Shown: piece by piece, positions 2,678-16,631 of the stretch
How positions within the stretch are numbered: position 1 is the stretch's first letter
Layout: each line of letters begins with the position of its first letter
Origin: Crateriforma conspicua
Lineage (GTDB): Bacteria > Planctomycetota > Planctomycetia > Pirellulales > Pirellulaceae
Direction of reading: 5' to 3'
Assembly (NCBI RefSeq): GCF_007752935.1
Contig: NZ_CP036319.1
Coordinates: 2,170,001 to 2,234,000, forward strand
DNA: 64,000 bases
The notes under the pieces: generated by a model
Told to the model about the DNA's origin: nothing
What the model saw: only the letters and a program-made list of their open reading frames with translations
The model's database searches: none
Position numbers and translations under genes: made by a program

Positions 2678-4876
2678 TCATCCGTTTTCGAGCAGCCGGT
2701 AGACAAAGCCGCATCGGGTCTTGGACCGTCGCTGCTCACGAACAACCAAACGCTGCGTGCCCAGCAATTCGATCACCTCCTTTTGTTCGCTGGGTTTCCA
2801 CGGCAATCTGCGGGCGAGTTCCCATTCGGGCATTGGTTTGTCGCCGCGTTTCTCTTTCCACTTCTTCAGCAGCCGGACGACCTCCTTGGCCATCGCGTCG
2901 AAGTCGTTACGGGCAACGTGGTCGCTGGCCATGAACAGCATCCGCCGCGTTTGATGCTCGACCACGCGGATGGCCCAGCGACAAGCGTCAGCATCGATGA
3001 CCGGATCACGGCAGTTGCGACTAACGGCGTAGAGAAGGGCGAGCTTTCGGGTCTGTTCGCTCACCCGTCCCCACACCGTCGTTCCGACCGGATCGTTCGC
3101 TTCCTCGGCTTTGTCGTACTGTTCCTCGGCGCTGACGCGAGCGTCGGCGAGCAACCGCTTGGCATCCTTGTCATGAGGGACGATTGCCGGCGTGGGGTTC
3201 CAATCAACAAGATTGCCGGCACCGGGGCGGAAATTCTCCCACCACGCGGCCGTCTCGATGATCGAATCCGGGACATCACGGATCTTGGGTTCTTGGCCCT
3301 TTCCGCGACGGCCACATTCGAAGATCAACATTCGAGCGAATAATCCGTTGGTTAACATCCGCTCGGACAACGCTTCGTAATAGTGGTTCGGGATCGCCGT
3401 GCCAAAGATGACCAGTGACGGTTGATTGATGACGCCGGGGTCTTCTTTGCCGGCTTTACGACGCATGGGATAGACGCTGTTGGCAGATGAGTACATCGTC
3501 AGCAACGTCGACATGATCTGCTCGAAGCGAGCGTCCTTGGATTTGTTGATCGATTGCAACAGTCCGTCGATCTCGTCGGTCTGAAACAGCATCGACGGGG
3601 TTAGGTTCAAACCGTCTTGAATCCCTTCACCGGACGCGAATCGTTCTCCGACGCAGCTTGCCATGCCAACTTGCTGCAGGATGCGGACGTTCAACTTCCG
3701 CGGCCAATCCTTGCCAGCGGCCGAGTGAGCCAAACCGAGCAGATACAGATTCGTCCGGTTGTCGCCGGGATCACGTACGCGGCGGCCGGCGAGTGTGGCT
3801 TGCAGCGACAACGCTCCGCAGAACGCCATGACAGGGTTGGGATACGGAGCCGTGTCGAGGCAATGGTCCATGACCTCGGCGATGAATCCGGGGATACGGA
3901 GTAAGTGATCTGGCAGCACTCCGGGGTCGGGAATGTTGGGTTTGTCACTCGAATCCGGTTCATCGTCGTCATCGTCAATGATATTTGATGACTTTGTGAA
4001 AGCCGACAGATCAACGTCATTCGCCGGTGGCGATGTCAATTGTTCGTCGCGCAACCAGCCGTAGGGACGATCGTGAGATTTGGTTGCCGCTTGGTTGATC
4101 TTGTGCTGCAACTCACGATCGGACCACGGCGGCGAACACCGCGGGTTGTATTCGCTTTGCAAGATCGCGAGGGCGCGATTAGGTGCAATGCCGAAGCCGT
4201 GAACCAATGCGGTCGCGGCGGCGAAGGTTTTCGAGTGACCGCTGCTGCCGGAGACCGCACCTGGCATGGCGGTGAGGTATGCGATGGCTCGTTGTTCAAC
4301 GTCGGCGGTTGGTTCCGAAAGCGCGGCCGGTATTGGCTTGGCAACTGGAACGCCCCGTTTGATGATGACGGCATCGGCGAGAGCTTTCACGCACGCGGCC
4401 AGCATGGGGGCGGGGACGGTTGCTGGATCGGCGTCGAGCACGTCATAGGGTTCGCCGTCTGGATGGATGCTTGGGCCGACCACGGTTTGACCACCAGTGG
4501 ATCGCAGCTCAACGATCATCGAACCGTCGGTCGGATCGGTGTGTTTGTCTGTGGTTGCACCAGTTGCGACGTACCAACGATGCGAGCGCGGTGAGGACGG
4601 CCGGCCGGTAACCGCTGGCGTTGGCGGCAGATATTGATCGGCTAGTTCGATCGCTTCGGGACAATCGAGATCCACGTCGACTAGCCAACCGGACGGCTCG
4701 CCGAGGATCAGTCCAATATTGCAACCTTCGGGAAAGACCTCAGGCTGCAAACGCAGCGATGTCCAGTCCCGTCGCGATGGTGACTTGGAGTTTGGTTTGA
4801 GCGGCACGCAGTACCAGCCACGATCGCGGTAGTTCGCGACGTGCGATCGAACGTCGATTGGGATTGGCTGGGACAT
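2678..4876 (-). CDS. Prim-Pol primase/polymerase fused to DUF3987-type helicase
   Basis: This 732-residue protein probably primes and unwinds DNA for element replication. The N-terminal 190 residues carry the archaeo-eukaryotic primase (Prim-Pol) motifs: the acidic pair in WLVDVDLDC (motif I), an S-x-H in PRSHRWY (motif II) and ELRSTGGQTVVGPSIHPDG (motif III). A linker rich in Asp/Ser at about 290-315 leads to a RecA-fold segment like DUF3987, with a Walker A-like loop SAAGKD near residue 395 and a Walker B-like LFQTDEID near 440. The C-terminal 60 residues look like a winged helix. This architecture is common in phages, satellites and integrative elements. The gene follows the 148-aa hypothetical gene and precedes the Cys-rich gene. 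Confidence 0.85.
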   Translation of the reverse strand: MSQPIPIDVRSHVANYRDRGWYCVPLKPNSKSPSRRDWTSLRLQPEVFPEGCNIGLILGEPSGWLVDVDLDCPEAIELADQYLPPTPAVTGRPSSPRSHRWYVATGATTDKHTDPTDGSMIVELRSTGGQTVVGPSIHPDGEPYDVLDADPATVPAPMLAACVKALADAVIIKRGVPVAKPIPAALSEPTADVEQRAIAYLTAMPGAVSGSSGHSKTFAAATALVHGFGIAPNRALAILQSEYNPRCSPPWSDRELQHKINQAATKSHDRPYGWLRDEQLTSPPANDVDLSAFTKSSNIIDDDDDEPDSSDKPNIPDPGVLPDHLLRIPGFIAEVMDHCLDTAPYPNPVMAFCGALSLQATLAGRRVRDPGDNRTNLYLLGLAHSAAGKDWPRKLNVRILQQVGMASCVGERFASGEGIQDGLNLTPSMLFQTDEIDGLLQSINKSKDARFEQIMSTLLTMYSSANSVYPMRRKAGKEDPGVINQPSLVIFGTAIPNHYYEALSERMLTNGLFARMLIFECGRRGKGQEPKIRDVPDSIIETAAWWENFRPGAGNLVDWNPTPAIVPHDKDAKRLLADARVSAEEQYDKAEEANDPVGTTVWGRVSEQTRKLALLYAVSRNCRDPVIDADACRWAIRVVEHQTRRMLFMASDHVARNDFDAMAKEVVRLLKKWKEKRGDKPMPEWELARRLPWKPSEQKEVIELLGTQRLVVREQRRSKTRCGFVYRLLENG

Positions 4877-5406: not shown

Positions 5407-7074
5407 TCAAAACGGGGCATCTTCGAGATTCGCGATTGCCGGTACTTCGCCGAGCGTGCAACCGATGATGCGGTCGTAGCGTTGGCCAGCGATTGATCGC
5501 ACGGTGATCGAATCCGGTGCGGCCAATAGTCCGGCGGCAGCGATGCCCATCGCCTCGTCGGCGTCAGTCGGGCACGGATCGAGGCAACGCTCCTGCCACC
5601 ACTGTTCGGCTTTGCGGCGGGCGAAGCCGGAGTGCTCGATGCAGATGAATTCACTTTGCCAATGATCCAGACCGATCATGTAGTCGACTCGCAAGCATCG
5701 CGGTGCGTCATCGTCGGCATCGCGTTTGCGATGGATGCGATAAACGATGTCTTGGACGTCGTAGTCGGTGTCGGTGACTTCGCCCGAGAGGACGCCGGCT
5801 TCGCTCGCCTTGGCATCGTGGGCCTCGCGGTCTGGCGGTGGAAACGGATGACCGCACTCGGGACAATTCGCATATCCGCACGCGACCAAGGCGTGACATT
5901 TTTCGCACTCTTTGGCCGGTGGTTCTTGGTCCGGGCGGGCAGCTTTCTCTTTCGGTTTGATTTGGTCGATCGGTCCGTGGCGTTCGATGTTGCCGCCGAA
6001 GTCGAGGACTAGGCAGTTCCGTTTGTCGGGATGCAGACGAAAGCCGCGACCAACACATTGATAAAGCAAGCCCGGCGACATGGTCGGGCGGAGCATGACC
6101 ACGCAATCGACGCGAGGTGCGTCGAATCCGGTCGTCAGCACATTCACGTTGCAAAGGAAACGCAGCGGTTCGTCGGCAAGCAAGGAAGTTGGTGCATCAC
6201 CGCGGAATCGCGACAGCAGTTCATCGCGTTCATCCGCCGGCGTCTCACCAGTGACAAAGCCACACTCGATGTCGTGGTTTTTCGCCAACGTTTCGACGAT
6301 TTGCCGGCCGTGGGCGACACTGGCGGCGAAGATCAAAACCGCCCTGCGGTCCGCGGTCAGTTCCACGATCTCGGCACACGCGGCCGACACGAGGGCGTCG
6401 TCGCCGGCCAATTGTTCGACATCACCGGTGACAAACTCGCCGGCACGGGTGCGGAGGTCGCCGAAGTCCGCTCGGTTGACGCCAGCTTTGGAAACGAGCG
6501 GGCAGAGATATCCATCGCGGATCAGTTCTTTGATGCCGACGTCGAAACAAACATGATTCAAGAAATGGTCTGGCGAACAGATCATTCCACTGTCCAAGCG
6601 GAACGGTGTCGCGGTTAGCCCAATCACGCGAACATTCGGGTTGATCACTTTGCAATCGGCAAGAAACTGCCGATACATACCGTCACCCTTCTTGCCGATA
6701 AGGTGTGCCTCATCAACCACGATCAGATCGAACGGATCAAGCTCGCACGCTCTCTTGTAAACGCTTTGAATGCCAGCGACCAAAACCGGCGTGTTCGTGT
6801 CACGCTTCTTCAGCCCAGCGGAGTACAAACCGACGTCGATGTCCGGACAGAGGCGGCGAACCTTGTCGGCGTTCTGTTCGAGCAACTCTTTGACGTGAGC
6901 CAGGATCAGCACGCGACCGCTCCAACGCTGAACAGCATCGCTAGCGATCTGCGCAAGCACGAGAGACTTACCGGCACCGGTCGGCAATACGGCGACCGGA
7001 TTGTCGTCGCGGGTGCGGATATGTTCGTAAACCGCGTCGACGGCGGATTGTTGATAGGCTCGCAGTTGCATCAC
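5407..7074 (-). CDS. SF2 DEAD/DEAH-box helicase, RadD-like
   Basis: A 555-residue superfamily 2 helicase. It has a Q-type opening (LRAYQQSAVDAVYEHI), Walker A PTGAGKS near residue 31, the DEAH box in LIVVDEAHL near 119, GLTATPFR near 153, and motif VI QCVGRGFRLHP near 345. After the helicase core is a four-cysteine knuckle (CEKCHALVACGYANCPECG, about residues 395-413). The order matches RadD/YejH-like proteins, which act on branched DNA in recombination and repair. The start codon overlaps the stop of the upstream resolvase gene by 4 nt (ATGA), indicating translational coupling. Helicase and Holliday-junction resolvase in adjacent genes suggest joint processing of recombination intermediates. 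Confidence 0.88.
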   Translation of the reverse strand: MMQLRAYQQSAVDAVYEHIRTRDDNPVAVLPTGAGKSLVLAQIASDAVQRWSGRVLILAHVKELLEQNADKVRRLCPDIDVGLYSAGLKKRDTNTPVLVAGIQSVYKRACELDPFDLIVVDEAHLIGKKGDGMYRQFLADCKVINPNVRVIGLTATPFRLDSGMICSPDHFLNHVCFDVGIKELIRDGYLCPLVSKAGVNRADFGDLRTRAGEFVTGDVEQLAGDDALVSAACAEIVELTADRRAVLIFAASVAHGRQIVETLAKNHDIECGFVTGETPADERDELLSRFRGDAPTSLLADEPLRFLCNVNVLTTGFDAPRVDCVVMLRPTMSPGLLYQCVGRGFRLHPDKRNCLVLDFGGNIERHGPIDQIKPKEKAARPDQEPPAKECEKCHALVACGYANCPECGHPFPPPDREAHDAKASEAGVLSGEVTDTDYDVQDIVYRIHRKRDADDDAPRCLRVDYMIGLDHWQSEFICIEHSGFARRKAEQWWQERCLDPCPTDADEAMGIAAAGLLAAPDSITVRSIAGQRYDRIIGCTLGEVPAIANLEDAPF

Positions 7075-7655
7075 ATCGGCACTCCGTTTCGGCGTTTGCC
7101 GGATCCGGCTTCAACGACCGATGGCGGCATCTTCGATTGCTTGTGTTTGCAATCACGACAAATTCGGTGTGTCGGGCCTTTTGATTCGAAAGATTGGTGG
7201 CACTGCAAACAAATGCGATTGGCATGGGCGTGTCTTTCGACATCGACCTCTGCGATCCAGACGATCGCTTGGCCCTTTGGCTTGTCTGCCGTCCGCTGGA
7301 CACCGGCGGCGATCTCTGCCTTGGTTCGTCGCTTTGGCGGAGCCTTCTTCTCGGCCACGATCTTTTCAATCGCCAATCGCACGATCTGGTTGTCGTCCAA
7401 GAACGCTCCGCCCCACTGCAGCGCGTCAAGCATCGCTTTGAGCACATTGTCGATGTCGCGACGGCGGCGGTCGGGCATGTGCAATTCGATGTCGACCGAC
7501 AGGGGGCCTTCGAGCGGTTGCACGCCTTTGCGATGCAGGTAGCCGCTCACGTCGGCGCGGTACTCGCGACCTTTCTTGGAGATCAACACACGCTGGCCGA
7601 CGTGTCGCCAGTAGTGATTGATCGTGGGCGGATAGGGCAGTTTGAGCTTGAGCAT
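7071..7655 (-). CDS. rusA: RusA-family Holliday junction resolvase with C-terminal zinc-binding tail
   Basis: The first 120 residues match RusA crossover-junction endodeoxyribonuclease: the opening LPYPPTINHYWRH, the metal-binding aspartates in MPDRRRRDIDNVLKAMLDAL, and the following GAFLDDNQIV. RusA dimers cut Holliday junctions and are mostly phage-borne. This copy has about 70 extra residues with ICLQCHQSFESKG and HRICRDCKHKQ, two CxxC pairs that probably bind one zinc. Standard RusA is about 120 residues, so the tail is an addition and may bind DNA or the neighbouring helicase. It overlaps the helicase gene by 4 nt. The protein family assignment is strong; the tail function is inferred. 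Confidence 0.88.
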   Translation of the reverse strand: MLKLKLPYPPTINHYWRHVGQRVLISKKGREYRADVSGYLHRKGVQPLEGPLSVDIELHMPDRRRRDIDNVLKAMLDALQWGGAFLDDNQIVRLAIEKIVAEKKAPPKRRTKAEIAAGVQRTADKPKGQAIVWIAEVDVERHAHANRICLQCHQSFESKGPTHRICRDCKHKQSKMPPSVVEAGSGKRRNGVPM

Positions 7656-7749: not shown

Positions 7750-8241
7750 CTATCGCTGCCAAGGTGGGGTATCCGTGCCGGAAGAGTCCGGCGAAGAAGC
7801 GGCGGTGCTAGACAGTTCGGAAGCCGCGATGGGCTGGGCCGAGGCGTCGCGCCGGGAATACCCCTTCACTTCGTTCTGCAACTCGCCAGTGTCTGATCGG
7901 CGTTTCACCTTGACGTGGATGTTGCAAGGCAAGTTGTGCAGGTCCGTCGAATCCGTTGGGGTGAGCACACCCACGGCGCGGCAGATCGCAGACAATTCGC
8001 GACGAGCGATCTCGACTGCGGTCGCGTTGGGGTTGTCGAGATTGAGTCGCACCCACAGGAGCCTGTTGGCGTGCTCGCCTTCGATAACTTGAAACGTGAG
8101 CTGAAGATAATTTCCGGCTCCCGACTTGGTCGGCTTCATTTCGCTGTCGGTGATGACGGCAACGTACTTGCCAACCGGGATCGGTTCGAGGTCGTTGGCG
8201 GGTTTAATAGTGTTGGCATCAAAGCCTTGAAGGTTGGCCAT
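7750..8241 (-). CDS. DUF669-family (phage ssDNA-binding-like) protein
   Basis: A 163-residue protein beginning MANLQGFDANTIKPANDLEPIPVGKYVAVI. This opening, followed by MKPTKSGAGNYLQLTFQVIEGEHANRLLWVRLNLD (read in two parts), is characteristic of DUF669 proteins found in phage recombination operons, where they are thought to bind single-stranded DNA. The frame is open up to 8370, but the ATG at 8239-8241 is preceded by an AAGGA Shine-Dalgarno sequence and opens the conserved region. The C-terminus (about 35 residues) is Ser/Asp/Pro-rich and ends in PPWQR, like the acidic tails of SSB-type proteins that recruit partners. It follows the Sak4-like ATPase gene, its usual neighbour. Confidence 0.85.
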   Translation of the reverse strand: MANLQGFDANTIKPANDLEPIPVGKYVAVITDSEMKPTKSGAGNYLQLTFQVIEGEHANRLLWVRLNLDNPNATAVEIARRELSAICRAVGVLTPTDSTDLHNLPCNIHVKVKRRSDTGELQNEVKGYSRRDASAQPIAASELSSTAASSPDSSGTDTPPWQR

Positions 8242-8285
8242 GGTTGGTTCCTTGGGAAAGTGGAAAGGGTTGGTGAATCGGTCGA

Positions 8286-9044
8286 TCAGTTCTTGGTCAT
8301 GGCACCGACGAACGCCGGCCACGAGAGCGGCAACTCGGTGTCGATGCCGTAGCGATTCTTGGCGACGCACGACGGTGATCCATAGGCACGGACAATACGT
8401 TCGCCGCCGTCTTTGCCGACCGCGTGAGCGATCGTGCGTTTACGGTTGAACCCGCCGTCTTCGGTTTGCGTTCGCATCTTGCGGGTGGCGAACAGCACCG
8501 CATCGCACCACTCTTTGATGAGTGCCGCGGCGTGTTTGTGCAGTCGCGGCGAATAGCGGTCGTAGGGCGAGCTTTCCGGATCTTCGAAACGCTCGACCTT
8601 TGAGTGAGCGATCAGCACGACCACCATGCCACGGGAACGCAGCACGCTAAGCACATCGAGAACGTCCCGCCACAGCGATAAGGCGTGCATGTAGCCGCGG
8701 GCGTATCCGCCGTCGACCTTTTCGATTGACTCGACTCCGTACTGCTGGCAGAGCTTGTCCCAAACCAAACGTTCGAGCCAATCGAGTGAGTCGACTACGA
8801 CGCTTTGATAGTCGTGCTTTTCATCACGCAGCGTTTTCAGTGCCGCCATGACGTCATCAAACGTGCCGGCCAGCGGAAAACGATCGCAGTCGATCTCGTC
8901 GAGACCGTCTTCGGTCTGAATGAAGATCGGCTTGGGTGCTTGGCTGCCGAATGTCGACTTGCCAATGCCCTCGACGCCATAGAGCAGCACGCGAGGTGGC
9001 TTCGATTGCCGGCCGGATTGGATGGATTGAAGTAACGTGGTCAC
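8286..9044 (-). CDS. Sak4-like/AAA_24 phage ATPase (single-strand annealing recombinase)
   Basis: A 252-residue RecA-fold ATPase. Walker A is GVEGIGKST at about residues 23-31, a Walker B-type strand is SVVVDSLDWLE near 80-90, and a third conserved strand is VVVLIAHSKVERFED. It resembles the AAA_24/Sak4 family of phage nucleotide-binding proteins, which promote single-strand annealing with a partner SSB. The lysine/histidine-rich segment YSPRLHKHAAALIKEW is also typical. Its neighbour downstream, the DUF669 protein, is the likely SSB partner. It lies second in the leftward operon, 33 bp after the 79-residue gene. The family is clear; annealing activity itself is inferred. Confidence 0.87.
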   Translation of the reverse strand: MTTLLQSIQSGRQSKPPRVLLYGVEGIGKSTFGSQAPKPIFIQTEDGLDEIDCDRFPLAGTFDDVMAALKTLRDEKHDYQSVVVDSLDWLERLVWDKLCQQYGVESIEKVDGGYARGYMHALSLWRDVLDVLSVLRSRGMVVVLIAHSKVERFEDPESSPYDRYSPRLHKHAAALIKEWCDAVLFATRKMRTQTEDGGFNRKRTIAHAVGKDGGERIVRAYGSPSCVAKNRYGIDTELPLSWPAFVGAMTKN

Positions 9045-9077: not shown

Positions 9078-9317
9078 TTAAAGGGATTCGATCGGTTCAA
9101 CGTCAAAGTTGCCGTCTCGATCGCTGGTCACGAGGTAGTGCTTGAAGTCCACCTGAACGATGAAGCGTTGACTCGGTCCGAGTCGTTTGCGGAGCGACTT
9201 ACACGCTCCGGTGAATTCGCGAGACGCTTCGTTGAAGCGATCCGCCGATCGCAGGTAGCGTCCGACGGCGAGCGAGAGTCCGACGCGGCGTTCGATATCG
9301 AGGGCAAGATTGGGCAT
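9078..9317 (-). CDS. Small hypothetical protein, first gene of the leftward operon
   Basis: A 79-residue basic protein starting MPNLALDIERRVGLSLAVGRYLRSADRF. The first 50 residues look helical and the remainder (QRFIVQVDFKHYLVTSDRDG) looks like two or three beta strands. No family is recognised. It begins 56 bp downstream of the 19-bp inverted-repeat site at 9373-9391 and ends 33 bp before the Sak4-like gene, so it is the promoter-proximal gene of the replication operon. Small proteins in this position in phages are often recombination or replication accessories, but nothing here proves it. Confidence 0.55.
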   Translation of the reverse strand: MPNLALDIERRVGLSLAVGRYLRSADRFNEASREFTGACKSLRKRLGPSQRFIVQVDFKHYLVTSDRDGNFDVEPIESL

Positions 9318-9372
9318 GACAGTCCGGGTTGGGGTTGCGGGAAGTCAGCAAGCGGATCGACGCTCGCCGGCT

Positions 9373-9391
9373 ACCTGTAGACCTACCGGAA
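9373..9391 (-). promoter_or_regulatory. 19-bp site, copy 1 (shared with 13852-13870)
   Basis: The minus strand reads TTCCGGTAGGTCTACAGGT, identical to the plus strand at 13852-13870. The site is an imperfect dyad, CCGGTAG-GT-CTACAGG, with a two-base centre. It lies in the 111-bp gap between the sigma-like gene and the first gene of the leftward replication operon, where a promoter for that operon must be. It could be an operator for the LexA-like repressor or a core site for the serine recombinase. Confidence 0.65.
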
Positions 9392-9428
9392 CAAATGCCC
9401 AAATCACGAAACCCGGCGAGAAATAATT

Positions 9429-10085
9429 TCAGGCGAGGTAATCACGCAGTCCCGCGTCCTCGAAGACTTGCGTCAGCTTTTCCAGCCGCGACACGACCGT
9501 CGAACGCGGCAAATCCAAGATCTCGGCGACGTCCGTCACGTTGTGTTCACGAAGCAGGATCAGAAATTCCCGCTCGTCAGCGGGCAGTTCAGCGAGCACC
9601 GACGCCAGGTCATCGCGCAGGTTCGTTGCATCAATCGAATCACGCTTTTCGGTTTGCAGCCGGCGTGACTTGTCGTCTTGATTCAGCAGGTCCACCATCG
9701 CTCGCGGACCGACTTCGCCATCGTTGATCCGCTGATCGAGCGAAACGCCATCGGCGGTGTAGCGGACCTTGGCCCTGCGGTGTTCGAGCATCGTGGCGGT
9801 GTGCCGGTCAACGATGCTGACGATGTAGGGATTGCGATGGCCGACCTCGTCGTCGTGGTGCTTCATCGCGTCGGTCAATCGAATCAGGAATTCCTGCGTC
9901 AGATCATCAACGGTGTCGCCGACGAACTCGGCGAGGCGAAGCAACTGTGTGACTCGCCGGTGAATGATTTTGCGGGTGAAGCAATCGGCGATCAACTCGG
10001 CCACGATGCGGTCGGCCTCGGTCGTTCCTTCGCCGGGGGCAACCAGATCGATGGACGAAAAATAGGGTTTGGAAGAAAGGGTCAC
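9429..10085 (-). CDS. Sigma-70-like RNA polymerase sigma factor encoded on the element
   Basis: From a GTG start at 10083-10085 the protein has about 218 residues. A GACGGAG sequence lies 8-14 nt upstream, and a longer reading to 10277 would run through the repeat region. A region-2-like segment (VDDLTQEFLIRLTDAMKHHD, then YIVSIVDRHTATMLEHRRAK) is followed by a region-4-like helix-turn-helix (LAELPADEREFLILL, then VTDVAEILDLPRSTVVSRLE). This is the two-domain ECF-type layout. An alternative is a sigma-like transcription regulator with no core-binding function. The gene is divergent from the 174-aa gene at 10418, with two 19-bp direct repeats between them. It would let the element direct host polymerase to its own promoters. 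Confidence 0.75.
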   Translation of the reverse strand: MTLSSKPYFSSIDLVAPGEGTTEADRIVAELIADCFTRKIIHRRVTQLLRLAEFVGDTVDDLTQEFLIRLTDAMKHHDDEVGHRNPYIVSIVDRHTATMLEHRRAKVRYTADGVSLDQRINDGEVGPRAMVDLLNQDDKSRRLQTEKRDSIDATNLRDDLASVLAELPADEREFLILLREHNVTDVAEILDLPRSTVVSRLEKLTQVFEDAGLRDYLA

Positions 10086-10155
10086 GTGCGAACTCCGTCG
10101 GCAAGTGGGTGATTGGCTTGGCCGCGTCACGGCAGCGGCCACACCCACCGGCGAA

Positions 10156-10174
10156 GTTGCACGAAATCGCACTC
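10156..10174 (+). repeat. 19-bp direct repeat, copy 1, in divergent control region
   Basis: AGTTGCACGAAATCGCACT occurs here and, identically, at 10242-10260, with an 86-bp period. A small dyad, CGA-AA-TCG, lies inside it. The 332-bp gap between the sigma-like gene (10085) and the gene at 10418 holds both copies and no supported gene. They are probably binding sites for a regulator, or promoter elements read by the element's own sigma-like protein. Confidence 0.65.
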
Positions 10175-10241
10175 CGGCTTTTGTGAAACCGTTTTGACCC
10201 CGCAAAACACAGGGAGAAAACGTTGCAGAAAAAGTTGTTGC

Positions 10242-10260
10242 AGTTGCACGAAATCGCACT
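10242..10260 (+). repeat. 19-bp direct repeat, copy 2, in divergent control region
   Basis: This copy is identical to 10156-10174. It is embedded in a run of GTTGCA/TGCAAC motifs from about 10222 to 10274 (several on each strand), which makes the copy-2 side denser in possible binding sites than the copy-1 side. It lies 158 bp before the rightward gene at 10418 and 157 bp before the leftward sigma-like gene. Confidence 0.65.
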
Positions 10261-10417
10261 AACTGCAACTGCAACACTCACGCGTCCCACGTGCGAGGGG
10301 ATCTGCCGACTAGAAATTCCTAAACTTTCTTTGGTCGCTTGGACCAAACGTGTCAAAGCCACCGGTCACGCTGAACGGCGAATGCTGTTTCCAAACCCTT
10401 CTCACCGGAGATCCGAA

Positions 10418-10942
10418 ATGGACGTGATTCCGTTCCACCGCCCGCTGACCGACGAAGAGTTCGCCCAGGAAGAAAAGGCCGATGCTCTGCAAACCGAGAT
10501 GCTCGATCGGTTAGCGAAATTTCTGCTCAACCCCGAACTGGACCGATGCGACATCGCCGACGGCATCCTCGCCGACGCCGAATTGATCCAGTTCCTCGGC
10601 CAATTCGAAAACGTGATGCTCGAATGTCATGCTCCCCGCGGAGCGAGTTGGGCTGAGATCCAGCAGGACCTTTCCTACAGTTCGATCACAACCGAGTCCG
10701 GCATCCCACGCGATCCACTTGTCCTGCCGTTGTTGCTGGGATGCATCATGGACGAGGACGACCGCGTCTGGCGCCAGGGATCACCGCAAGAATTCATCCG
10801 CGCGCACGAGGATGTTCAAACATCGAACTTACGTGGCCGGCCAATGTTCTATGCTGGCGTGAACGGGTCGATGTCCAGTGAGTTTGTCAGCGCCAAAGAA
10901 AATTTTTCAGACGGTTATTTACAGTGCTTTCAGCTTTGCTAG
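10418..10942 (+). CDS. Hypothetical protein divergent from the sigma-like gene
   Basis: A 174-residue acidic protein. The frame is open from 10223, but the ATG at 10418 has CGGAG eight bases upstream and opens the well-behaved part of the protein (MDVIPFHRPLTDEEFAQEEK). The rest is mainly helical, with LQTEMLDRLAKFLLNPELDR and a Cys-containing core (LGCIMDEDDRVW). No transmembrane segment or known domain is recognised. Its TAG stop lies inside a perfect 12-bp palindrome (10935-10946). The gene lies between the sigma-like gene and the LexA-like gene, so a regulatory role is plausible but unproven. Confidence 0.55.
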   Translation: MDVIPFHRPLTDEEFAQEEKADALQTEMLDRLAKFLLNPELDRCDIADGILADAELIQFLGQFENVMLECHAPRGASWAEIQQDLSYSSITTESGIPRDPLVLPLLLGCIMDEDDRVWRQGSPQEFIRAHEDVQTSNLRGRPMFYAGVNGSMSSEFVSAKENFSDGYLQCFQLC

Positions 10943-10979
10943 CAAATTTTGACTAGACCGGGCAATCTGCATGACTAGA
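10935..10979. promoter_or_regulatory. CTAG-centred palindrome and paired octamers ahead of the LexA-like gene
   Basis: TTTGCTAGCAAA at 10935-10946 is a perfect 12-bp palindrome. It is followed by two copies of TGACTAGA at 10950-10957 and 10972-10979. The octamers start 22 bp apart, about two helical turns. Three CTAG tetramers (10939, 10953, 10975) occur in 40 bp, which is notable because CTAG is often scarce in bacterial DNA. The cluster is 75-120 bp before the LexA-like start codon, so it is a likely operator for autoregulation. Confidence 0.5.
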
Positions 10980-11053
10980 TTTAAGCAAGCACGAAACGAA
11001 GTCTATCAGCGCTAATTCGATCCGCCCAAAGTCAACGTCATGGAAGTCCGATC

Positions 11054-11722
11054 ATGAAGCCATCGAAGTCACGCCGGGAGCCGCCCAGACGCGGACGACC
11101 ACGCCAAACCGAAATCACCGAAGGCCAATCGCGGGCACTCGACGAACTGTCCGCCGCGATCGATCGCCACGGCATTGCGCCGACGATGACCGAACTCGGT
11201 GACCGGCTTGGCATCAGCGCCGCCAGCGCCCACCAACTGGTCTTGCAACTTGAACGCAAGGGTTACGTCGCACGGCAACCGCGGAAGGCGCGAAGCCTTC
11301 GCGTCCTGCGACGTCCGAGCCAATCGATCGAGTCAATGACCGGTGTGAAGTTGGTTGGCGTGGTCAAAGCTGGTCCGGCGATGTTGGCCGAAGAGAACTG
11401 TCTTGGCGAAGTCATGGTTGCGTCATCGCTGGTCGGCCGCAGCCCATGCTTTGCCCTGACGATCAGCGGCGACAGCATGAAGGACGCTGACATGCGTGAC
11501 GGTGACGTCGTGATCGTTCGCCGGCAACCGATCGCCGAAAACGGTGAGATCATTGTTGCGTTGATCGATGACGAAGCCACCGTCAAGCGTTTGGAAGCCA
11601 ACGACGGAGAGGTTCGGTTGCTGCCGGAAAACCGCCGGTACAAACCGATCGAGGTTCAGCCTGATAGCGACTTTCGTGTGCTTGGAAAAGTCATCGGTGT
11701 TTCTCGGAAGTCTGAAAGTTAA
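11054..11722 (+). CDS. lexA: LexA-like repressor (winged helix plus S24 autoprotease)
   Basis: A 222-residue protein with LexA organisation. Residues about 20-85 form the winged helix (ALDELSAAIDRHGIAPTMTE, then DRLGISAASAHQLVLQLERKGYV). The self-cleavage bond is Ala-Gly in VVKAGPAML near residue 109. The catalytic serine is in ISGDSMKDADM and the lysine in ATVKRLE, so the Ser-Lys dyad is intact. DNA damage acting through RecA would be expected to cause self-cleavage and derepression. The location between the replication and integration modules, together with the sigma-like neighbour, suggests an element switch rather than the host SOS regulator, though an orthologous host role cannot be excluded. 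GGAAG precedes the ATG. Confidence 0.9.
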   Translation: MKPSKSRREPPRRGRPRQTEITEGQSRALDELSAAIDRHGIAPTMTELGDRLGISAASAHQLVLQLERKGYVARQPRKARSLRVLRRPSQSIESMTGVKLVGVVKAGPAMLAEENCLGEVMVASSLVGRSPCFALTISGDSMKDADMRDGDVVIVRRQPIAENGEIIVALIDDEATVKRLEANDGEVRLLPENRRYKPIEVQPDSDFRVLGKVIGVSRKSES

Positions 11723-11728
11723 GAGTTC

Positions 11729-12910
11729 ATGTCCCAACCTGTTGCCATCTCAACCGTTTTTCGAACCGTTCCCAATGTCTTGCTTCGTCGTTGGTTCGAC
11801 GACCACGTTCCCGGACAATTCCCAATCAAGTGGGATGATCTGGGCGAACGCGAAGTCGAACCGATGATGTCCTTTCACAACGAGTTGCCACCGAGCAAGC
11901 GTGACGAAATGGACATTGATCTGCAAACCGTCCGTGCGTTCGCCAGCGAAGCCGGCATGCGAGCGTTCATGGACGCTGCAGAATTACATGACGTAAACGA
12001 CCTGATGCAACGCATCCCCGATGACCTCGACCTGAACGGTCGAGCGATGTGGGTGCGTGTCAATGAACCAGAGATCTTTAAATCGTCGTTGCTATTCCTG
12101 CGTCTGGACGAGGCCCAGTGGTGGCGGTGCCGAAACGATGTTCCCCAGAACATGCGAATCGCTAAAGACGTCAAGGAAAGACTTCAAGACGCGATCTCCG
12201 ACCTACTTCGCGAAGACGGTCGCGGCCAGCAAACGACCGTCCAGATCGTCAAACGCGGCGATTGCACCTACTTCGATTGCAACCCGGACGACTACGTTCG
12301 CAGTGAGAACACGCACGATGAAAGTGGCAACTTGATGTCCATCCCACTGCGTCCGACGACACAAGTTCTCGTGAAATACGACGCAGGCGTCGGCCAATTG
12401 CAAATTTCGACGAAGATCAAACAGCCACGCAAATCCCAGATCGAACAGGTCGTCGCCAAGGTCGCGCTGGGCTGGGATCTTGGGCCGTACAGCGATGAGC
12501 CGGCGTATGAATTGGACCATCTCAAACTCCCAACGTTCAATCTCGAAACGGATCCGTCCGACAACATCCACGCCCGAATCGAATCAATCGGATTGTTAAA
12601 CACGATCACGCATCGCAAATCGACCGCCAGCGTCCGGCGGAACGACTCCGATGATTCGATCTACCGAGCGATCGAGGAAGAACTCGGCCGGGAACCCAGT
12701 TCTTTGCACCAACTGCAGGTGACGTATGTGGAGATCAAGTTTCAGTTCCCCGGCACCCGCTATCACCGCGCCGGTCGAACGACCATCCGCATCACGCCGC
12801 GTTCGTGCAACTTGAACCGATTGACATCCGATCGTGCCGAGATCGTTCAAAAGCATCTCAAGTTGTGGAACATCGACAATGCGTCGATCGATCAATCCGG
12901 TCTGGGCTAG
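11729..12910 (+). CDS. Unrecognised protein, upstream member of a two-gene unit
   Basis: A 393-residue soluble protein starting six bases after the LexA-like gene, so probably co-transcribed with it. It has an N-terminal segment of about 120 residues (MSQPVAISTVFRTVPNVLL), a central region with WWRCRND and FDCNPDDYV, and a C-terminal half of alternating strands ending in FQFPGTRYHRAGRTTIRI. No nuclease, ATPase, HTH or membrane motif could be identified. Its last 32 bases overlap the next gene, which ends in a predicted HTH, so the two products may work together. I do not assign a function. It could be a regulator, a toxin/antitoxin-like unit or a defence protein. Confidence 0.6.
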   Translation: MSQPVAISTVFRTVPNVLLRRWFDDHVPGQFPIKWDDLGEREVEPMMSFHNELPPSKRDEMDIDLQTVRAFASEAGMRAFMDAAELHDVNDLMQRIPDDLDLNGRAMWVRVNEPEIFKSSLLFLRLDEAQWWRCRNDVPQNMRIAKDVKERLQDAISDLLREDGRGQQTTVQIVKRGDCTYFDCNPDDYVRSENTHDESGNLMSIPLRPTTQVLVKYDAGVGQLQISTKIKQPRKSQIEQVVAKVALGWDLGPYSDEPAYELDHLKLPTFNLETDPSDNIHARIESIGLLNTITHRKSTASVRRNDSDDSIYRAIEEELGREPSSLHQLQVTYVEIKFQFPGTRYHRAGRTTIRITPRSCNLNRLTSDRAEIVQKHLKLWNIDNASIDQSGLG

Positions 12911-13820
12911 GTGGGAATCCGCTTCGGCCACCTTCACCCGCCATGAAGTTGAAACCCGCTGGAAAACGCAACTCGCTTTTCTGCGTCCTGCCGGCTTGCT
13001 CGTTCCGACCTTGCCCGCAGCGGAATGGTGGTGTGATGATTGTGGCGAACACCACTCGGTCCAGTACCACGACTTTCCCGCGGGTAAGCAAGCGATCGTG
13101 ATCTGCAACGCCGGATCGATTCGTTTGTCTGTGGACCAAGTCGATCGTTTCGCTTTGGACACCGAATCCATGCTGCGATGGCTGTTCGCAGATTCACGCG
13201 TCGCGGTCGAATCAATCATCGCAAATCACCTGTGGAAGATCGGTCGGTATACGCTTCGTGGCCGCAGTCGTGAATTGCTGTTTGTACGCGGTGCCGGCCC
13301 ATCGCATGTCAATGTGATCCGCGAAAGATTGGTCACTCATCCGAAAGCGATCTTGTTTACGCCGACCACCGGGTCCGCCGACCATTGGCGGACAATCGTT
13401 CGGTGCAGCGTGTTCGCCTTGGAACAAGTCGCCGTTTTGAACAAGTCGAATCCCATCATCGATTGGGACGGGATTGAAGACGCAATTACGGTTCGCGGAA
13501 GTGATGCCGATACATCGACAAAACCCCGTCGCAAGCGTGGAACCCGAACCGCCAAGATCGAACGCCTGCGAGACGAACTCAAACGGCATCTCGCGGCCGC
13601 GGCCGACCACGCAATCGCCGCCGCCGAAACCGAAGCCGGCATTACACTGCTTCCACGACCATCGAAAACGCAGCTCGCCAAACTCACTGGCATGACCAAA
13701 CCCGACGTCACGCGCTGCTTCGCCGATCCCACAGCTACCGAATTGAACCTGCTCTGGGACACCGCCGATGACCTCGAAGCCATCCTTCGTCTCCGCGGCC
13801 GATCGCAGCTCGCAAAATAA
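12879..13820 (+). CDS. Unrecognised protein with C-terminal HTH, partner of 11729-12910
   Basis: A 313-residue protein using the ATG at 12879, which has GTGGA at a workable distance. The same frame is open from 12834 but that would deepen the overlap with the preceding gene. The N-terminal half contains EWWCDDCGEHHSVQYHDF, with CxxC and HH that could bind a metal, and then repeated strands and helices (MLRWLFADSRVAVESIIANH). A basic linker (TKPRRKRGTRTAKIERL) joins it to a C-terminal helix-turn-helix-like segment (SKTQLAKLTGMTKPDVTRCF). DNA binding is likely from the C-terminus. The overlapping arrangement with the 393-residue gene suggests translational coupling. I recognise no family. Confidence 0.6.
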   Translation: MRRSINPVWARWESASATFTRHEVETRWKTQLAFLRPAGLLVPTLPAAEWWCDDCGEHHSVQYHDFPAGKQAIVICNAGSIRLSVDQVDRFALDTESMLRWLFADSRVAVESIIANHLWKIGRYTLRGRSRELLFVRGAGPSHVNVIRERLVTHPKAILFTPTTGSADHWRTIVRCSVFALEQVAVLNKSNPIIDWDGIEDAITVRGSDADTSTKPRRKRGTRTAKIERLRDELKRHLAAAADHAIAAAETEAGITLLPRPSKTQLAKLTGMTKPDVTRCFADPTATELNLLWDTADDLEAILRLRGRSQLAK

Positions 13821-13851
13821 TTCTCATCGCCTTTCGTGATTTCGACGTTTC

Positions 13852-13870
13852 TTCCGGTAGGTCTACAGGT
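13852..13870 (+). promoter_or_regulatory. 19-bp site, copy 2 (inverted relative to 9373-9391)
   Basis: TTCCGGTAGGTCTACAGGT on the plus strand is identical to the minus strand at 9373-9391. It lies 31 bp after the stop of the HTH-partner gene and 310 bp before the DUF2924 gene, in the 359-bp gap 13821-14179. Both copies therefore stand ahead of a transcription unit that leads away from the regulatory centre. The remainder of this gap holds no supported gene, only the leader structure at 14119-14174. Confidence 0.65.
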
Positions 13871-14118
13871 GAGAGCGGTTGTCGTTAACCGCTCAGTCTT
13901 GTTCCACGACCAAAAGAGTCTCCCGAGTTGCGATCACTCCAAAGGCCAACAACACTTGACGTTTCCCGCCGAAACAACGTCGTTCGAATCCTCGCCGAAG
14001 CCATCGTCGACCAACTGTCCCGCCCAGCTGCCGGCACAACCGAGCCACGGGAAAATAACTTCGGTGAAAGTTCGCACGACTCCGAGCATGATCGCTTGAG
14101 TGTGTCGGCGACGGACCG

Positions 14119-14179: not shown

Positions 14180-14680
14180 ATGCCCCTGAACATCGACAAA
14201 GAGGTCGCCGCGATGAAGCGGATGACCGTCGGCGAATTGCAGTCGAAGTACGCCGAGGTCTACGGCGAATCCACCAACGGTCGACACAAACAATGGTTGA
14301 TCAAACGCATCGCTTGGCGGATGCAAGCCAACGAATACGGCGGCCTATCCGACCGTGCACTCACCCGTGCCCGCGAAATCGCCAATACGTCTGATTTGCG
14401 AACGACCCCGCCCGGCGAAGATGCAGCACCCCCAGCCAAACGCATTCCCGGCCGAGCACAACTGCACCCGCCGGCAGGCGACGACCGTTTGCCGGCAGTC
14501 GGACTCACGATCGAACGTGTCTACAAAGGCGTTACCTACGAGGTCATCGTCCGCGAAGGCGGCTTTGAATTTGAAGGCGAGTTCTACAAATCGCTGACCG
14601 CCATCGCCGGCGTCATCACGGGATCCCATTGGAACGGATACCGCTTCTTCAAACTCGATCGTAAGGAGACGAGCCGATGA
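14180..14680 (+). CDS. DUF2924 family protein, recombinase partner
   Basis: A 166-residue basic protein of the DUF2924 family. It opens with a helical region, MTVGELQSKYAEVYGESTNGRHKQWLIKRIAWRMQ (read as two motifs), then a Pro-rich linker, and ends with the conserved LTIERVYKGVTYEVIVREGGFEFEGEFYKSLTAIA (read in parts) and HWNGYRFFKL. DUF2924 proteins are encoded next to serine recombinases in many prophages and integrated elements, and are thought to assist or modulate recombination. Here its last four bases overlap the recombinase start (ATGA), confirming the pairing. The upstream leader has a nested hairpin that may limit translation. Confidence 0.85.
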   Translation: MPLNIDKEVAAMKRMTVGELQSKYAEVYGESTNGRHKQWLIKRIAWRMQANEYGGLSDRALTRAREIANTSDLRTTPPGEDAAPPAKRIPGRAQLHPPAGDDRLPAVGLTIERVYKGVTYEVIVREGGFEFEGEFYKSLTAIAGVITGSHWNGYRFFKLDRKETSR

Positions 14681-16215
14681 TCCGCGAAGCCAATGCAAAC
14701 GACAAGGTCGTGCGGTGTGCGATCTACACCCGCAAGAGCACCGAAGACGGGCTAGAACAAGAGTTCAATTCACTCGACGCACAACGCGACGCAGGCGAAG
14801 CATTCATTGCTAGCCAACGGCACGAAAGCTGGGAGTGTTTGCCGACCAAATACGACGACGGCGGCTATACCGGCGGCAACCTTGATCGACCGGCGATGCA
14901 ACGACTGATGGCGGACATTGATGCTGGCAAGATCGACTGTGTCGTCGTCTACAAAGTCGACCGACTCAGCCGATCGCTGATGGACTTCTCCCGAGTCATG
15001 GAAAAGTTCGATAACAAAGGTGTCGCATTTGTCTCGGTCACTCAGCAGTTCAACACTGCGAGTTCCATGGGCCGGCTGATTCTGAACGTGCTGCTATCGT
15101 TCGCTCAGTTTGAACGCGAAATGATCTCGGAGCGAACACGCGACAAGATTGCCGCCGCGAGACGACGCGGTAAGTGGTCCGGTGGCATGCCGCTCTTGGG
15201 ATACAACGTGATCGACACCAAGTTAGTCGTCATCCCCGAAGAAGCCGAGCGAGTTCGCCAGATATTCTCGCTCTATCTCGAACACGGATCGTTGCTCGAC
15301 ACCGCAAAGGCGATAAACGAACGGGGCTGGAGGACCAAACAGTGGACCACCAAAAAGGGAACGCAGCGTGGCGGCAAACTCTTCGACAAGACCAATGTTC
15401 ACACGCTGTTGATCAACCCGACCTACATCGGCAAAGTCCGCTACCGCGACGAGGTCCACGAGGGCGAGCATCAGGCGATCGTCGACACCAGCCTTTTCAC
15501 TTCCGTTCAAAAGCGATTGAAACGTAATGGTCGCGGAGGTCACGAAAAGGCCCGCAACCAGCATGCCGCGTTGCTGCGAAGCGTTCTCCGGTGCAAACAA
15601 TGCGACCGCGCCATGGTCCACAACAGCAGCACGAAGCGGAACCGTCGCTACCGCTATTACGTGTGTGGTGGTGCCCAGAAACGTGGCCACGCATCTTGCC
15701 CCACGCCATCGATCCCGGCCGACCAGATCGAATCCTTCGTCATCGGCGAGATCAAAGCGATCGCAGCCGATCATGAATTGATCGCGGACATCCACGACCA
15801 GACTCAGTTCAAAACGAAAGAAAAGCTCGATGCTCTCGTCCGCGAGCGTGAATCGCTCATCGAGTTTTTGCGATCCTATCACGGCCAACTGAACCATCTG
15901 GCAATCACCAGCGGTCCTATGGAGTTGGTCGCCGACCTGCAAACACGCATCACCCAATCGGAGCGAAGGCACGCTGAATTGAACGAGCAAATCGAATCGC
16001 TCGAAGCCAATGCCCCACGTCGCGTCGATATCGTCGATTCGCTCAACCGCTTCGACGAACTTTGGGCGTCAATGAAGCCCCGCGATCGCAACGACCTCGT
16101 TGCGACGCTCGTTGACCGAGTTGACTACGACGGCGTCGCAGGGACCGTCGACATCCACTTTCACACCACAGGCATCACCACGCTAGGCCAAACCAACCCG
16201 GAGCCCTCATCGTGA
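14677..16215 (+). CDS. Large serine recombinase (site-specific integrase)
   Basis: A 512-residue recombinase. The N-terminal resolvase domain starts RCAIYTRKSTEDGLEQEF, with the catalytic serine in the YTRKST context, and continues with VVYKVDRLSRSLMDFSRV, NTASSMGRLILNVLLSFAQF and RERTRDKI-like motifs. The recombinase domain follows near 170-280. A zinc ribbon lies at about 305-345 (LRCKQCDRAMVH, then YYVCGGAQKRGHASC). A coiled coil occupies roughly 375-450. This is the standard large serine integrase layout, carrying out integration and, with a directionality factor, excision. Its attachment site is not identifiable here. An AAGGAGA ribosome-binding site sits inside the end of the DUF2924 gene. 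Confidence 0.93.
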   Translation: MIREANANDKVVRCAIYTRKSTEDGLEQEFNSLDAQRDAGEAFIASQRHESWECLPTKYDDGGYTGGNLDRPAMQRLMADIDAGKIDCVVVYKVDRLSRSLMDFSRVMEKFDNKGVAFVSVTQQFNTASSMGRLILNVLLSFAQFEREMISERTRDKIAAARRRGKWSGGMPLLGYNVIDTKLVVIPEEAERVRQIFSLYLEHGSLLDTAKAINERGWRTKQWTTKKGTQRGGKLFDKTNVHTLLINPTYIGKVRYRDEVHEGEHQAIVDTSLFTSVQKRLKRNGRGGHEKARNQHAALLRSVLRCKQCDRAMVHNSSTKRNRRYRYYVCGGAQKRGHASCPTPSIPADQIESFVIGEIKAIAADHELIADIHDQTQFKTKEKLDALVRERESLIEFLRSYHGQLNHLAITSGPMELVADLQTRITQSERRHAELNEQIESLEANAPRRVDIVDSLNRFDELWASMKPRDRNDLVATLVDRVDYDGVAGTVDIHFHTTGITTLGQTNPEPSS

Positions 16216-16631
16216 AACCACAAGTCGAACCCGACACAACCCCGGTAACGCGACCTTTCACCGTCACCCGCCGCTGCGCCGGCCGCCAAAACGTAACGCC
16301 CGGCACGCCGCCACCGTCGCCCCCACCGGGCCGCCTTCCGCGAGTCACCAAACTCCTGGCCCTCGCCATCCACTTCGACGAACTCATCCGCACCGGCGCG
16401 GTTACCTCCCAAGCCGAACTAGCCCGTCTCGGTCAAGTCAGCCGCCCCCGTCTGACGCAAATCATGAACCTGCTGCATCTTTCGCCGGACATCCAGGAGG
16501 AGATCCTCCACCACTGCAAAATCATTACCGGCCGCGACCCAATCACCGAACGAGAATTGCGAGTCGTAGCTCTTCTGCCGTCGTGGGAGAAGCAAAGGAC
16601 GCAGTTCAGTCGTCTGACAACACATCTCTAA
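16212..16631 (+). CDS. Small HTH protein downstream of the recombinase
   Basis: A 139-residue protein beginning at a GTG that overlaps the recombinase stop by 4 nt. The first 50 residues are Pro/Arg-rich and look disordered. Residues about 65-105 form a helix-turn-helix (VTSQAELARLGQVSRPRLTQ) followed by LHLSPDIQEEILHH, a pattern like KorB/ParB-type DNA-binding proteins. Similar short proteins follow DUF2924-recombinase pairs in other genomes, from memory. It may be a regulator of the operon or the recombination directionality factor, which large serine integrases need for excision; that is inference. Its stop codon overlaps the convergent hydrolase stop by four bases. Confidence 0.75.
   Translation: MKPQVEPDTTPVTRPFTVTRRCAGRQNVTPGTPPPSPPPGRLPRVTKLLALAIHFDELIRTGAVTSQAELARLGQVSRPRLTQIMNLLHLSPDIQEEILHHCKIITGRDPITERELRVVALLPSWEKQRTQFSRLTTHL

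Follow-up and report, generated by a model that had tools for sequence, protein, structure and literature searches.

The repeated element and the operons it heads

The window analyzed here is a 64,000-nucleotide stretch of the Crateriforma conspicua chromosome (NZ_CP036319.1, positions 2,170,001 to 2,234,000; genome G000), in which a short DNA element is repeated, in inverted orientation, ahead of two outward-facing operons of a prophage. The first-pass annotation of this DNA had described a 19-mer, TTCCGGTAGGTCTACAGGT, at 9373-9391 (minus strand) and 13852-13870 (plus strand), and a search of the window recovers exactly these two copies, with no further match at up to 3 mismatches and a chance expectation close to zero (0 matches over 100 dinucleotide shuffles). 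Gene calls likewise place the minus copy ahead of a replication operon and the plus copy ahead of an operon for a DUF2924 protein and a recombinase, as that annotation had it. The principal features are as follows, R and D denoting the replication and DUF2924-recombinase sites.

9371..9408, minus: R site, 38-bp candidate promoter of the sigma type (CGTGA ... CCGGTAGGTCTACAGGTAG), heading the replication operon and holding the 19-mer at 9373-9391
9429..10085, minus: extracytoplasmic function (ECF)-like sigma factor, 218 amino acids (aa) from GTG 10085; a longer frame runs to 10277 and the start is uncertain
11054..11722, plus: LexA-type repressor with S24 autoprotease domain (TIGR00498, 174 bits versus a cut-off of 111)
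13835..13872, plus: D site, second 38-bp element, heading the DUF2924-recombinase operon and holding the 19-mer at 13852-13870

Extension of the search to the whole 7.18-Mb genome, which the annotation had proposed, adds one near-copy with 1 mismatch (G000:C1:2139552-2139570, minus strand), about 40 kb to the left of the window copies; at 3 mismatches the genome matches are at background level (1 versus 2 for a reversed-pattern control). This third copy (the L site) lies outside the window and heads a portal-capsid-tail operon, and because that is a phage structural operon, the mobile element is a prophage. A fourth, weaker copy (25/32 positions) is divergent from the terminase gene. Alignment of the copies shows the 19-mer to be the 3' half of an element of about 37-38 bp with fixed spacing, CGTGAT...TTCCGGTAGGTCTACAGG, which exceeds the repeat noted earlier and has the longer constant-spacing form TTTCGTGATYNG....TTNNTTCCGGTAGGTCTACAG. 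The element comprises a putative -35 box, CGTGA, and a putative -10 region, CCGGTAGGTCTA, at constant spacing (box words of the A-type R, D and L sites, CGTGA and GGTAGGTC), and two boxes so spaced and positioned 5' of several operons are what is found in a sigma-dependent regulon.

Matching sites occur in related elements at matching positions. The closest case is G333 (contig C428), in which both copies are present, inverted and 4.46 kb apart, the intervening gene order is that of the window, and the DUF2924 and 79-aa genes again occupy the outer flanks; the sigma factor is 58% and the LexA protein 87% identical to that of the window. Among 241 genomes of the same family scanned at up to 3 mismatches, the element pattern is found in 8, the window's own genome included, with 0 matches for the reversed-pattern control, and an 18-mer scan at 1 mismatch over 296 genomes of the order matched 4 genomes versus 2 reversed-control matches. 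A scan of named genomes for the A-type pattern returned six stretches, of which five are planctomycete (Neorhodopirellula pilleata twice, Rubripirellula obstinata, strain SV_7m_r and a Planctomycetales metagenome-assembled genome) and one is from Shewanella; the Shewanella match and five IMG/VR matches look like chance.

Sites linked to other sigma genes of the family fall into the following types, written as -35 and -10 words.

Type A (G000, G333): CGTGA/CCGGTAGGTCTACAGG
Type A' (G411): CGTCA/..ACAAG
Type B (G396, G121, G448, G160): TTGGAAGGTCTA
Type B2 (G434): TCGGAAGGTCTA
Type C (second sigma gene of the window's genome, G406, G288): CGGGTAGGTCTAT
Type E (G243, G399, G448b): GTAGTTCAAGG

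The imperfect dyad that had been read in the 19-mer is present as letters in the window, but relatives do not keep it (e.g. AGTTGGAAGGTCTAGAGG); what they do keep is the two-box spacing. Two other origins for the site were discarded: the E-type -10 region (GTAGYTCAAGGGGTAG) resembles a tRNA D-arm, but ARAGORN finds no tRNA at the sites in the 15 sources scanned, and short open frames overlap the site, but their reading frame varies among copies.

The sigma factor and the site after its stop codon

The protein encoded beside the R site belongs to the sigma-70 superfamily by TIGR02937 (50.2 bits, cut-off 42.9) and to the PHROG 1740 sigma factor group. In three relatives scanned, one exceeds the TIGR02937 cut-off (50.3) and two fall below it (37.8 and 29.5), and the Pfam matches of the window protein to sigma regions 2 and 4 (E ~1e-3) lie below the gathering scores. 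A profile of the family aligns to the solved ECF factor SigW over positions 23-201 (4.3e-5), and to SigE in two stretches, each weak singly.

Homologues of this sigma factor are found in 62 of the 241 family genomes (E<=0.001). At the 34 sigma loci examined (L072, at a contig end, was left out), a 38-mer matching the element follows the sigma stop codon with a score of at least 17/20 in 25, compared with 2 of 900 random 130-nt stretches; at a score of at least 15/20 the figures are 30 of 34 and 69 of 900, with four loci scoring below 15. The offset from the stop codon ranges from +1 to +35, and in the window the R site starts 20 nt past it. Viral contigs carry the same gene linkage: a query with the AAA_24 ATPase of the replication operon returned 261 stretches with a relative, and among the best 80 of these that were kept, 57 have at least 1.3 kb upstream of the ATPase, a sigma homologue being present there in 49, in 34 of them 347-394 nt before the ATPase. 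Some of these contigs are probably from genomes already counted. Several of the other sigma genes of the viral contigs share different words after the stop codon, e.g. F (CGGCATAGGTAA) and G (GCCTAAGTAACC).

Co-variation of the site with its sigma factor

The R site changes in step with the neighboring sigma factor. In a Mantel test, R-site distance correlates with sigma distance at r=0.89 (p=1e-4, n=29, G434b, a short frame, having been dropped from the 30 sites), and among 15 sigma factors of less than 75% identity the correlation is 0.70 over all 38 positions and 0.58 for the -10 region (both p=1e-4). With LexA controlled, the partial correlation of site with sigma is 0.85 (p=5e-4), versus -0.13 (p=0.76) for site with LexA once sigma is controlled (n=9 for both). 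For the recombinase (n=15), site with sigma retains 0.88, versus 0.15 (p=0.14) for site with recombinase given sigma. AAA_24, DUF669 and DUF2924 show no independent Mantel correlation with the site after sigma, and for the 79-aa gene a small correlation of its own remains (0.26, p=2e-4, n=27).

Because linkage could account for the behavior of the R site, the far copies were compared as well. Of 13 elements examined, 10 have a D site, which lies about 3-4.5 kb from R, and in all 10 the element's own R site is among the nearest, with ties counted (permutation p=1e-5; exact p=5e-5 and 2e-4 for non-redundant sets of 8 and 7). L sites, 16-40 kb from R, have their own R site as nearest in 6 of 6, again with ties counted (p=0.003; exact p=0.0083 for 5), and fourth-class sites are nearest to their own type in 4 of 5 (p=0.008). 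A generic pattern (reversed control, 3 hits per 833 kb) served to locate the L and fourth sites, so that sites breaking it are missed; no fourth site was found with it for G121 or for the B-type prophage of G448. The site type co-varies with the cognate sigma factor, also at the far sites, where n is small and ties are counted.

As judged from these comparisons, the 38-bp elements are very probably the -35/-10 promoters of the prophage's ECF-like sigma factor, driving its replication, integration and structural operons. A number of observations weigh against this assignment. At 9 of the 34 sigma loci no site scores at least 17, the R site abuts the sigma gene, and the choice of scoring letters and windows was made with the sites already known. 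In the viral contigs, sites scoring at least 17 and at least 19 follow 15 and 6 of the 49 sigma genes with looser letters, shuffles giving 15-18; the site form is there confined to the nearer sigma factors and is narrower than the sigma-ATPase linkage. Within the 15-sigma set the spacer also correlates with sigma (0.35, p=0.0013), the -35 pentamer alone does so weakly (0.28, p=0.012) and for the downstream 7 bases the correlation is not significant (0.24, p=0.065), so that shared ancestry contributes to the result. LexA distance and recombinase distance also correlate with site distance when taken plainly (r=0.73, p=0.0045, n=9, and r=0.45, p=2e-4, n=15, respectively), and the partial tests alone separate them from sigma. 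Three C-type prophages have no D site in about 400 nt upstream of DUF2924, and 4 of the 10 D sites (G396, G121, G448, G160) and 2 of the 6 L sites tie with the R site of an element of a different group. An ECF promoter would not usually have a core as long and as invariant as that of the A type. Finally, 7-8 letters of the -35 side of the A-type site (TTTCGTG) recur in one of the invariant words that precede lexA (GTTTCGTGC), the likeness being to the reverse complement of the third such word, GCACGAAAC, and 7-8 letters recur also in the repeat upstream of the sigma gene.

Other candidate regulators of the site

Between the two copies lie several further features that bear on the identity of the regulator.

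10155..10173, minus: copy 1 of a 19-bp repeat, AGTGCGATTTCGTGCAACT, that precedes the sigma gene, in a region conserved across nine aligned prophages
10242..10260, minus: the same repeat, copy 2, in a region conserved in the nine-prophage alignment
10418..10942, plus: 174-aa protein with no Pfam match, divergent from sigma; homologues in 6 of the 8 other LexA-bearing prophages
10935..10946, no strand: TTTGCTAGCAAA palindrome upstream of lexA, candidate LexA operator, 11 of 12 bases invariant in nine prophages
11004..11014, no strand: TATCAGCGCTA, second invariant word upstream of lexA in the nine-prophage comparison
11729..12910, plus: 393-aa protein of unknown function
12942..13820, plus: gene for a 292-aa protein of unknown function; its end lies immediately before the D site

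The first-pass annotation had suggested that the LexA-like repressor binds both copies and derepresses replication and excision together. On such a reading the sites would be operators at which LexA represses both functions until SOS induction. A single shared regulator, coupling replication with the integration/excision genes, is indeed very probable, but LexA is probably not that regulator, and it is highly improbable that the sites are LexA operators. The protein is a true LexA by both NCBIfam and Pfam (LexA_DNA_bind and Peptidase_S24), its gene is situated between the two copies, and the partial dyad, the plain correlation with LexA distance and the TTTCGTG likeness described above all speak for the idea. 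Against these, LexA is 84-87% identical to that of the window across nine prophages, taken over the longest matches, with a nearly constant DNA-binding domain, while the sites of the same prophages range from TTCCGGTAGGTCTACAGG to GTTGGAAGGTCTAGAGG; an SOS box would be kept wherever the same LexA is kept, and this one is not. LexA has no explanatory power once sigma is controlled. Its own upstream region keeps other words across the nine prophages, TTTGCTAGCAA(A), TATCAGCGCTA and GCACGAAAC, all three of which are absent from the R and D sites, and five 13-20-kb stretches that carry both sigma and site (L083-L085, L087, L105) contain no LexA match. A second LexA is encoded in the same genome (C1:4543865), at a locus without the three words. 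The region upstream of sigma is itself conserved and distinct from that of lexA, and its two AGTGCGATTTCGTGCAACT copies in the window are candidate control sites of sigma expression.

The same five stretches bear on the idea that some other activator or repressor of the element, encoded near sigma and co-evolving with it, binds the site. The long and nearly invariant A-type core would suit such a protein, and further genes of unknown function are present in the segment; however, the 174-aa, 393-aa and 292-aa genes have no match in those stretches, and a pair of boxes spaced like -35 and -10 elements and placed immediately 5' of operons fits a sigma factor, so that this alternative is improbable. 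The sites could also be cores for the serine recombinase, across which the 4.5-kb segment inverts, as had been offered as a second reading of the 19-mer, or they could be attachment sites. Identical inverted copies near a large serine recombinase invite this explanation, as does the plain correlation with recombinase distance, but it is extremely improbable: in 10 of 10 elements with both copies the segment has a single orientation, with sigma beside the replication operon, the third copy heads a structural operon some 40 kb away, copies of mixed types stand ahead of helix-turn-helix (HTH)-primase genes in satellite-like elements (see below), and the recombinase contributes little once sigma is taken into account.

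With promoter function for the prophage sigma factor as the preferred assignment, a regulatory cascade may be outlined. The sigma factor would redirect RNA polymerase of the host to no fewer than three operons of the prophage, namely those for replication (R), DUF2924 and recombinase (D), and portal, capsid and tail (L). The prophage LexA probably stands upstream of the cascade and maintains lysogeny from separate operators of its own, and DNA damage would then lead to more sigma, upon which the prophage modules may fire together. What the computation shows is the element itself, where its copies lie, and that it varies together with sigma and not with LexA or the recombinase; binding of the element by sigma, its identity as a promoter and the step from LexA to sigma are inferred.

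Putative promoter arrays in satellite-like elements

In other genomes, single A-type copies are found ahead of HTH-primase or AAA-ATPase genes, and upstream of such genes there are usually several sites of different types rather than a single one. Two of these elements (L037 and L040) are units of 6.7-7.3 kb made up of predicted promoters, HTH gene, primase, DUF2924, recombinase and the 139-aa gene, with no match to the window sigma, the window LexA or seven structural and packaging probes within 20 kb. HTH, DUF2924 and recombinase occur together in 12 of 21 element loci, nine being without one or more of them, and a primase match is missing in one (L153) of the 12 full elements. The HTH_17 match of the satellite-type HTH protein is below the gathering score (21.9 versus 27). 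Across the 21 loci, each a stretch of about 10-20 kb, the seven structural and packaging probes of the window phage (E<=1e-4) give 0 matches, although unlike structural genes would escape them. An integrase and a replication gene of its own, together with the lack of structural genes, mark a satellite, and this is the composition observed.

A search of the 241 genomes with the HTH protein of L040 matched 27 and returned 30 loci, at which 24 positions score at least 18/23 against known sites, compared with 0 for the reversed control; L109-L111 had been found via the site and are not independent within this set. In eight other loci with HTH identity of at least 75% (L112-L117, L136, L137), five have at least two types, one has a single type and two have none. 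A further count used 12-mer cores derived from sites linked to sigma genes and tolerated 1 mismatch. For 18 elements, the 1.8-kb stretches that precede the HTH gene contain 39 matches in a total of 32.4 kb, versus 1 on the antisense strand, 0 with reversed cores and 5 per 298 kb in the rest of the same loci. At least two types are present in 10 of these 18 elements (five at most, F and F' counted apart), one in 2 and none in 6; as the F and H cores were fixed after some satellite sites had been seen, this array count is not blind. Three further loci without an HTH match (L036, L038, L042) have two or three types each. Defective-prophage remnants were considered in place of satellites, an explanation that fails to account for tandem same-strand arrays of mixed types.

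In G411 the sigma genes can be set beside a satellite of the same genome. Sigma genes of types A' (C3:304089), B (C3:459933) and F (C2:429895) are present, the last identical to the query, which is possibly from this same genome, and the satellite (C21) carries cores of types A, B, F, F' and H, those of B and H with one mismatch; its A core is in a site that is nearest to G411's own A' type (19/23). The F sigma is also found in G419 and G402 (about 90%), with a 59% relative in G121, and the elements there carry F. For most satellite A, B and C promoters no matching sigma is seen in the same genome; this is to be expected if the helpers come from outside, but is also a weakness of the proposal. 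On balance it seems likely that compact planctomycete phage satellites carry tandem promoters ahead of the HTH-primase genes, each suited to another phage family's sigma factor, such that any one of several helper phages would switch the same satellite on by producing its own sigma factor.

Comparison with known systems

The window sigma factor resembles ECF (sigma-70 group IV, TIGR02937) factors in its candidate two-box promoters, its superfamily match and its profile match to SigE/SigW structures over putative regions 2 and 4; it differs in being prophage-borne, with sites that head phage modules rather than a stress regulon. Xpf of the Bacillus element PBSX is a phage-encoded sigma factor. 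Sporulation-like sigma factors encoded by phages are also known (PMC9429907). These share with the present case a sigma factor encoded by a phage or prophage; the differences are that here the sites head replication, integration and structural operons, and that several promoter types co-vary with sigma in one host family.

Among satellites, the activator of P4 is related to that of its helper, and in the P2/P4 Ogr-Delta system satellite and helper late genes answer related phage-type activators (PMC8628076). In the planctomycete case it is the sigma factor and promoter that would be shared, and the satellite-like elements, which have no match to the window sigma, stack promoter types. The PICMI satellites of Vibrio have a similar minimal plan, with integrase, HTH regulator, primase, a small integrase-overlapping gene and no capsid remodelling genes, and helper activation of their early regulon is stated there as open (PMC10803314); the present elements differ in their serine recombinase with DUF2924, their planctomycete hosts and the arrays of putative promoters that precede the HTH gene. 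In a review of helper-dependent elements (PMC11389934), the terms 'sigma factor' and 'promoter' are absent from the main text by term search. Open-access literature on satellites and phage-encoded sigma factors yielded nothing on point, as did searches on planctomycete prophage ECF sigma factors or phage ECF factors in lysogens; none was found on P4-type late promoters, and for DUF2924 the papers found concern Wolbachia only.

A satellite that carries its helper's own promoter, and several promoters for several helpers, offers a plausible general answer to the question of helper sensing. The prophages also offer a ready natural set of candidate sigma-promoter pairs, with sharp differences between elements whose neighboring genes are much alike, which is useful for studying the evolution of sigma specificity and for orthogonal expression tools, and the site is a simple genomic signature for planctomycete prophages, their promoters and their satellites.

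Other features of the prophage and its surroundings

The two operons headed by the R and D sites in the window comprise the following genes.

9078..9317, minus: 79-aa first gene of the replication operon; homologue beside 27 of 29 site-bearing sigma genes
8286..9044, minus: AAA_24 ATPase, replication operon (Pfam, 174 bits)
7750..8247, minus: DUF669 protein, replication operon
7071..7655, minus: RusA resolvase, replication operon
5407..7074, minus: DEAD/ResIII helicase, replication operon
2678..4876, minus: Prim-Pol/DUF3987 primase, replication operon
14180..14680, plus: DUF2924 protein, first gene of the D operon (Pfam, 131.7 bits)
14677..16215, plus: large serine recombinase, putative prophage integrase (Resolvase, Recombinase, Zn_ribbon_recom)
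16212..16631, plus: 139-aa gene overlapping the recombinase end (PHROG 14161, 'recombinase')

Outside the window, the L-site operon encodes a small protein, a lambda-type portal (PF05136, 197 bits), a protease-capsid protein, a tail tube protein and a 1308-aa tape measure protein, with a GpA-type terminase further right and 15-18 kb of other genes between the operon and the terminase. In the window's genome all these parts appear to belong to one single prophage. Terminase, portal and capsid of the prophages in G411, G396, G434, G121 and G448 are 84-92% identical to those of the window phage, the AAA_24 proteins of relatives are mostly 84-91% identical to the window's, and in relatives the sigma gene is 16-30 kb from the structural operon. 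Two more sigma genes of the family on the same chromosome, at G000:C1:2068001 (type C) and G000:C1:1713358 (type F), suggest two further related prophages.

Immediately after the D site, a strong hairpin near GTTAAC (13873-13894, z -2.73) would open the D transcript; its counterpart in G333 is weaker (z -1.41), and GTTAAC recurs shortly downstream of all 10 D sites found. To the left of the window, a 37-84-nt repeat with the core CGCTTGAGGTGT...CATGGCTCATGTGTGT stands ahead of successive small open frames in the manner of a cassette leader, mostly downstream of the fourth site (L035:267-349, 706-788, 1080-1162 and 2490-2526; L034:14827-14910 and 19458-19541). In G000 and G396 a terminase-like stretch of 32-36 aa (L033:14654-14761 and L094:19615-19710) immediately precedes the L site, the full terminase being 11-18 kb away, and in G411 and G434 the L site directly follows the end of the terminase; the stretch looks like a cargo insertion with a duplicated gene end. 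In the G121 prophage (L101/L102, G121:C1:6560000-6599999) the portal match is incomplete, and about 17 kb with a satellite-like primase precede the capsid gene. From their translations, three tandem same-strand genes beside the terminase (L034:15103-18307) are tyrosine recombinase-like, which we take to resemble a recombinase-trio insertion, and genes read in the same way as Type I restriction-modification genes lie to the right of the prophage end at 20114-26782 of the window.

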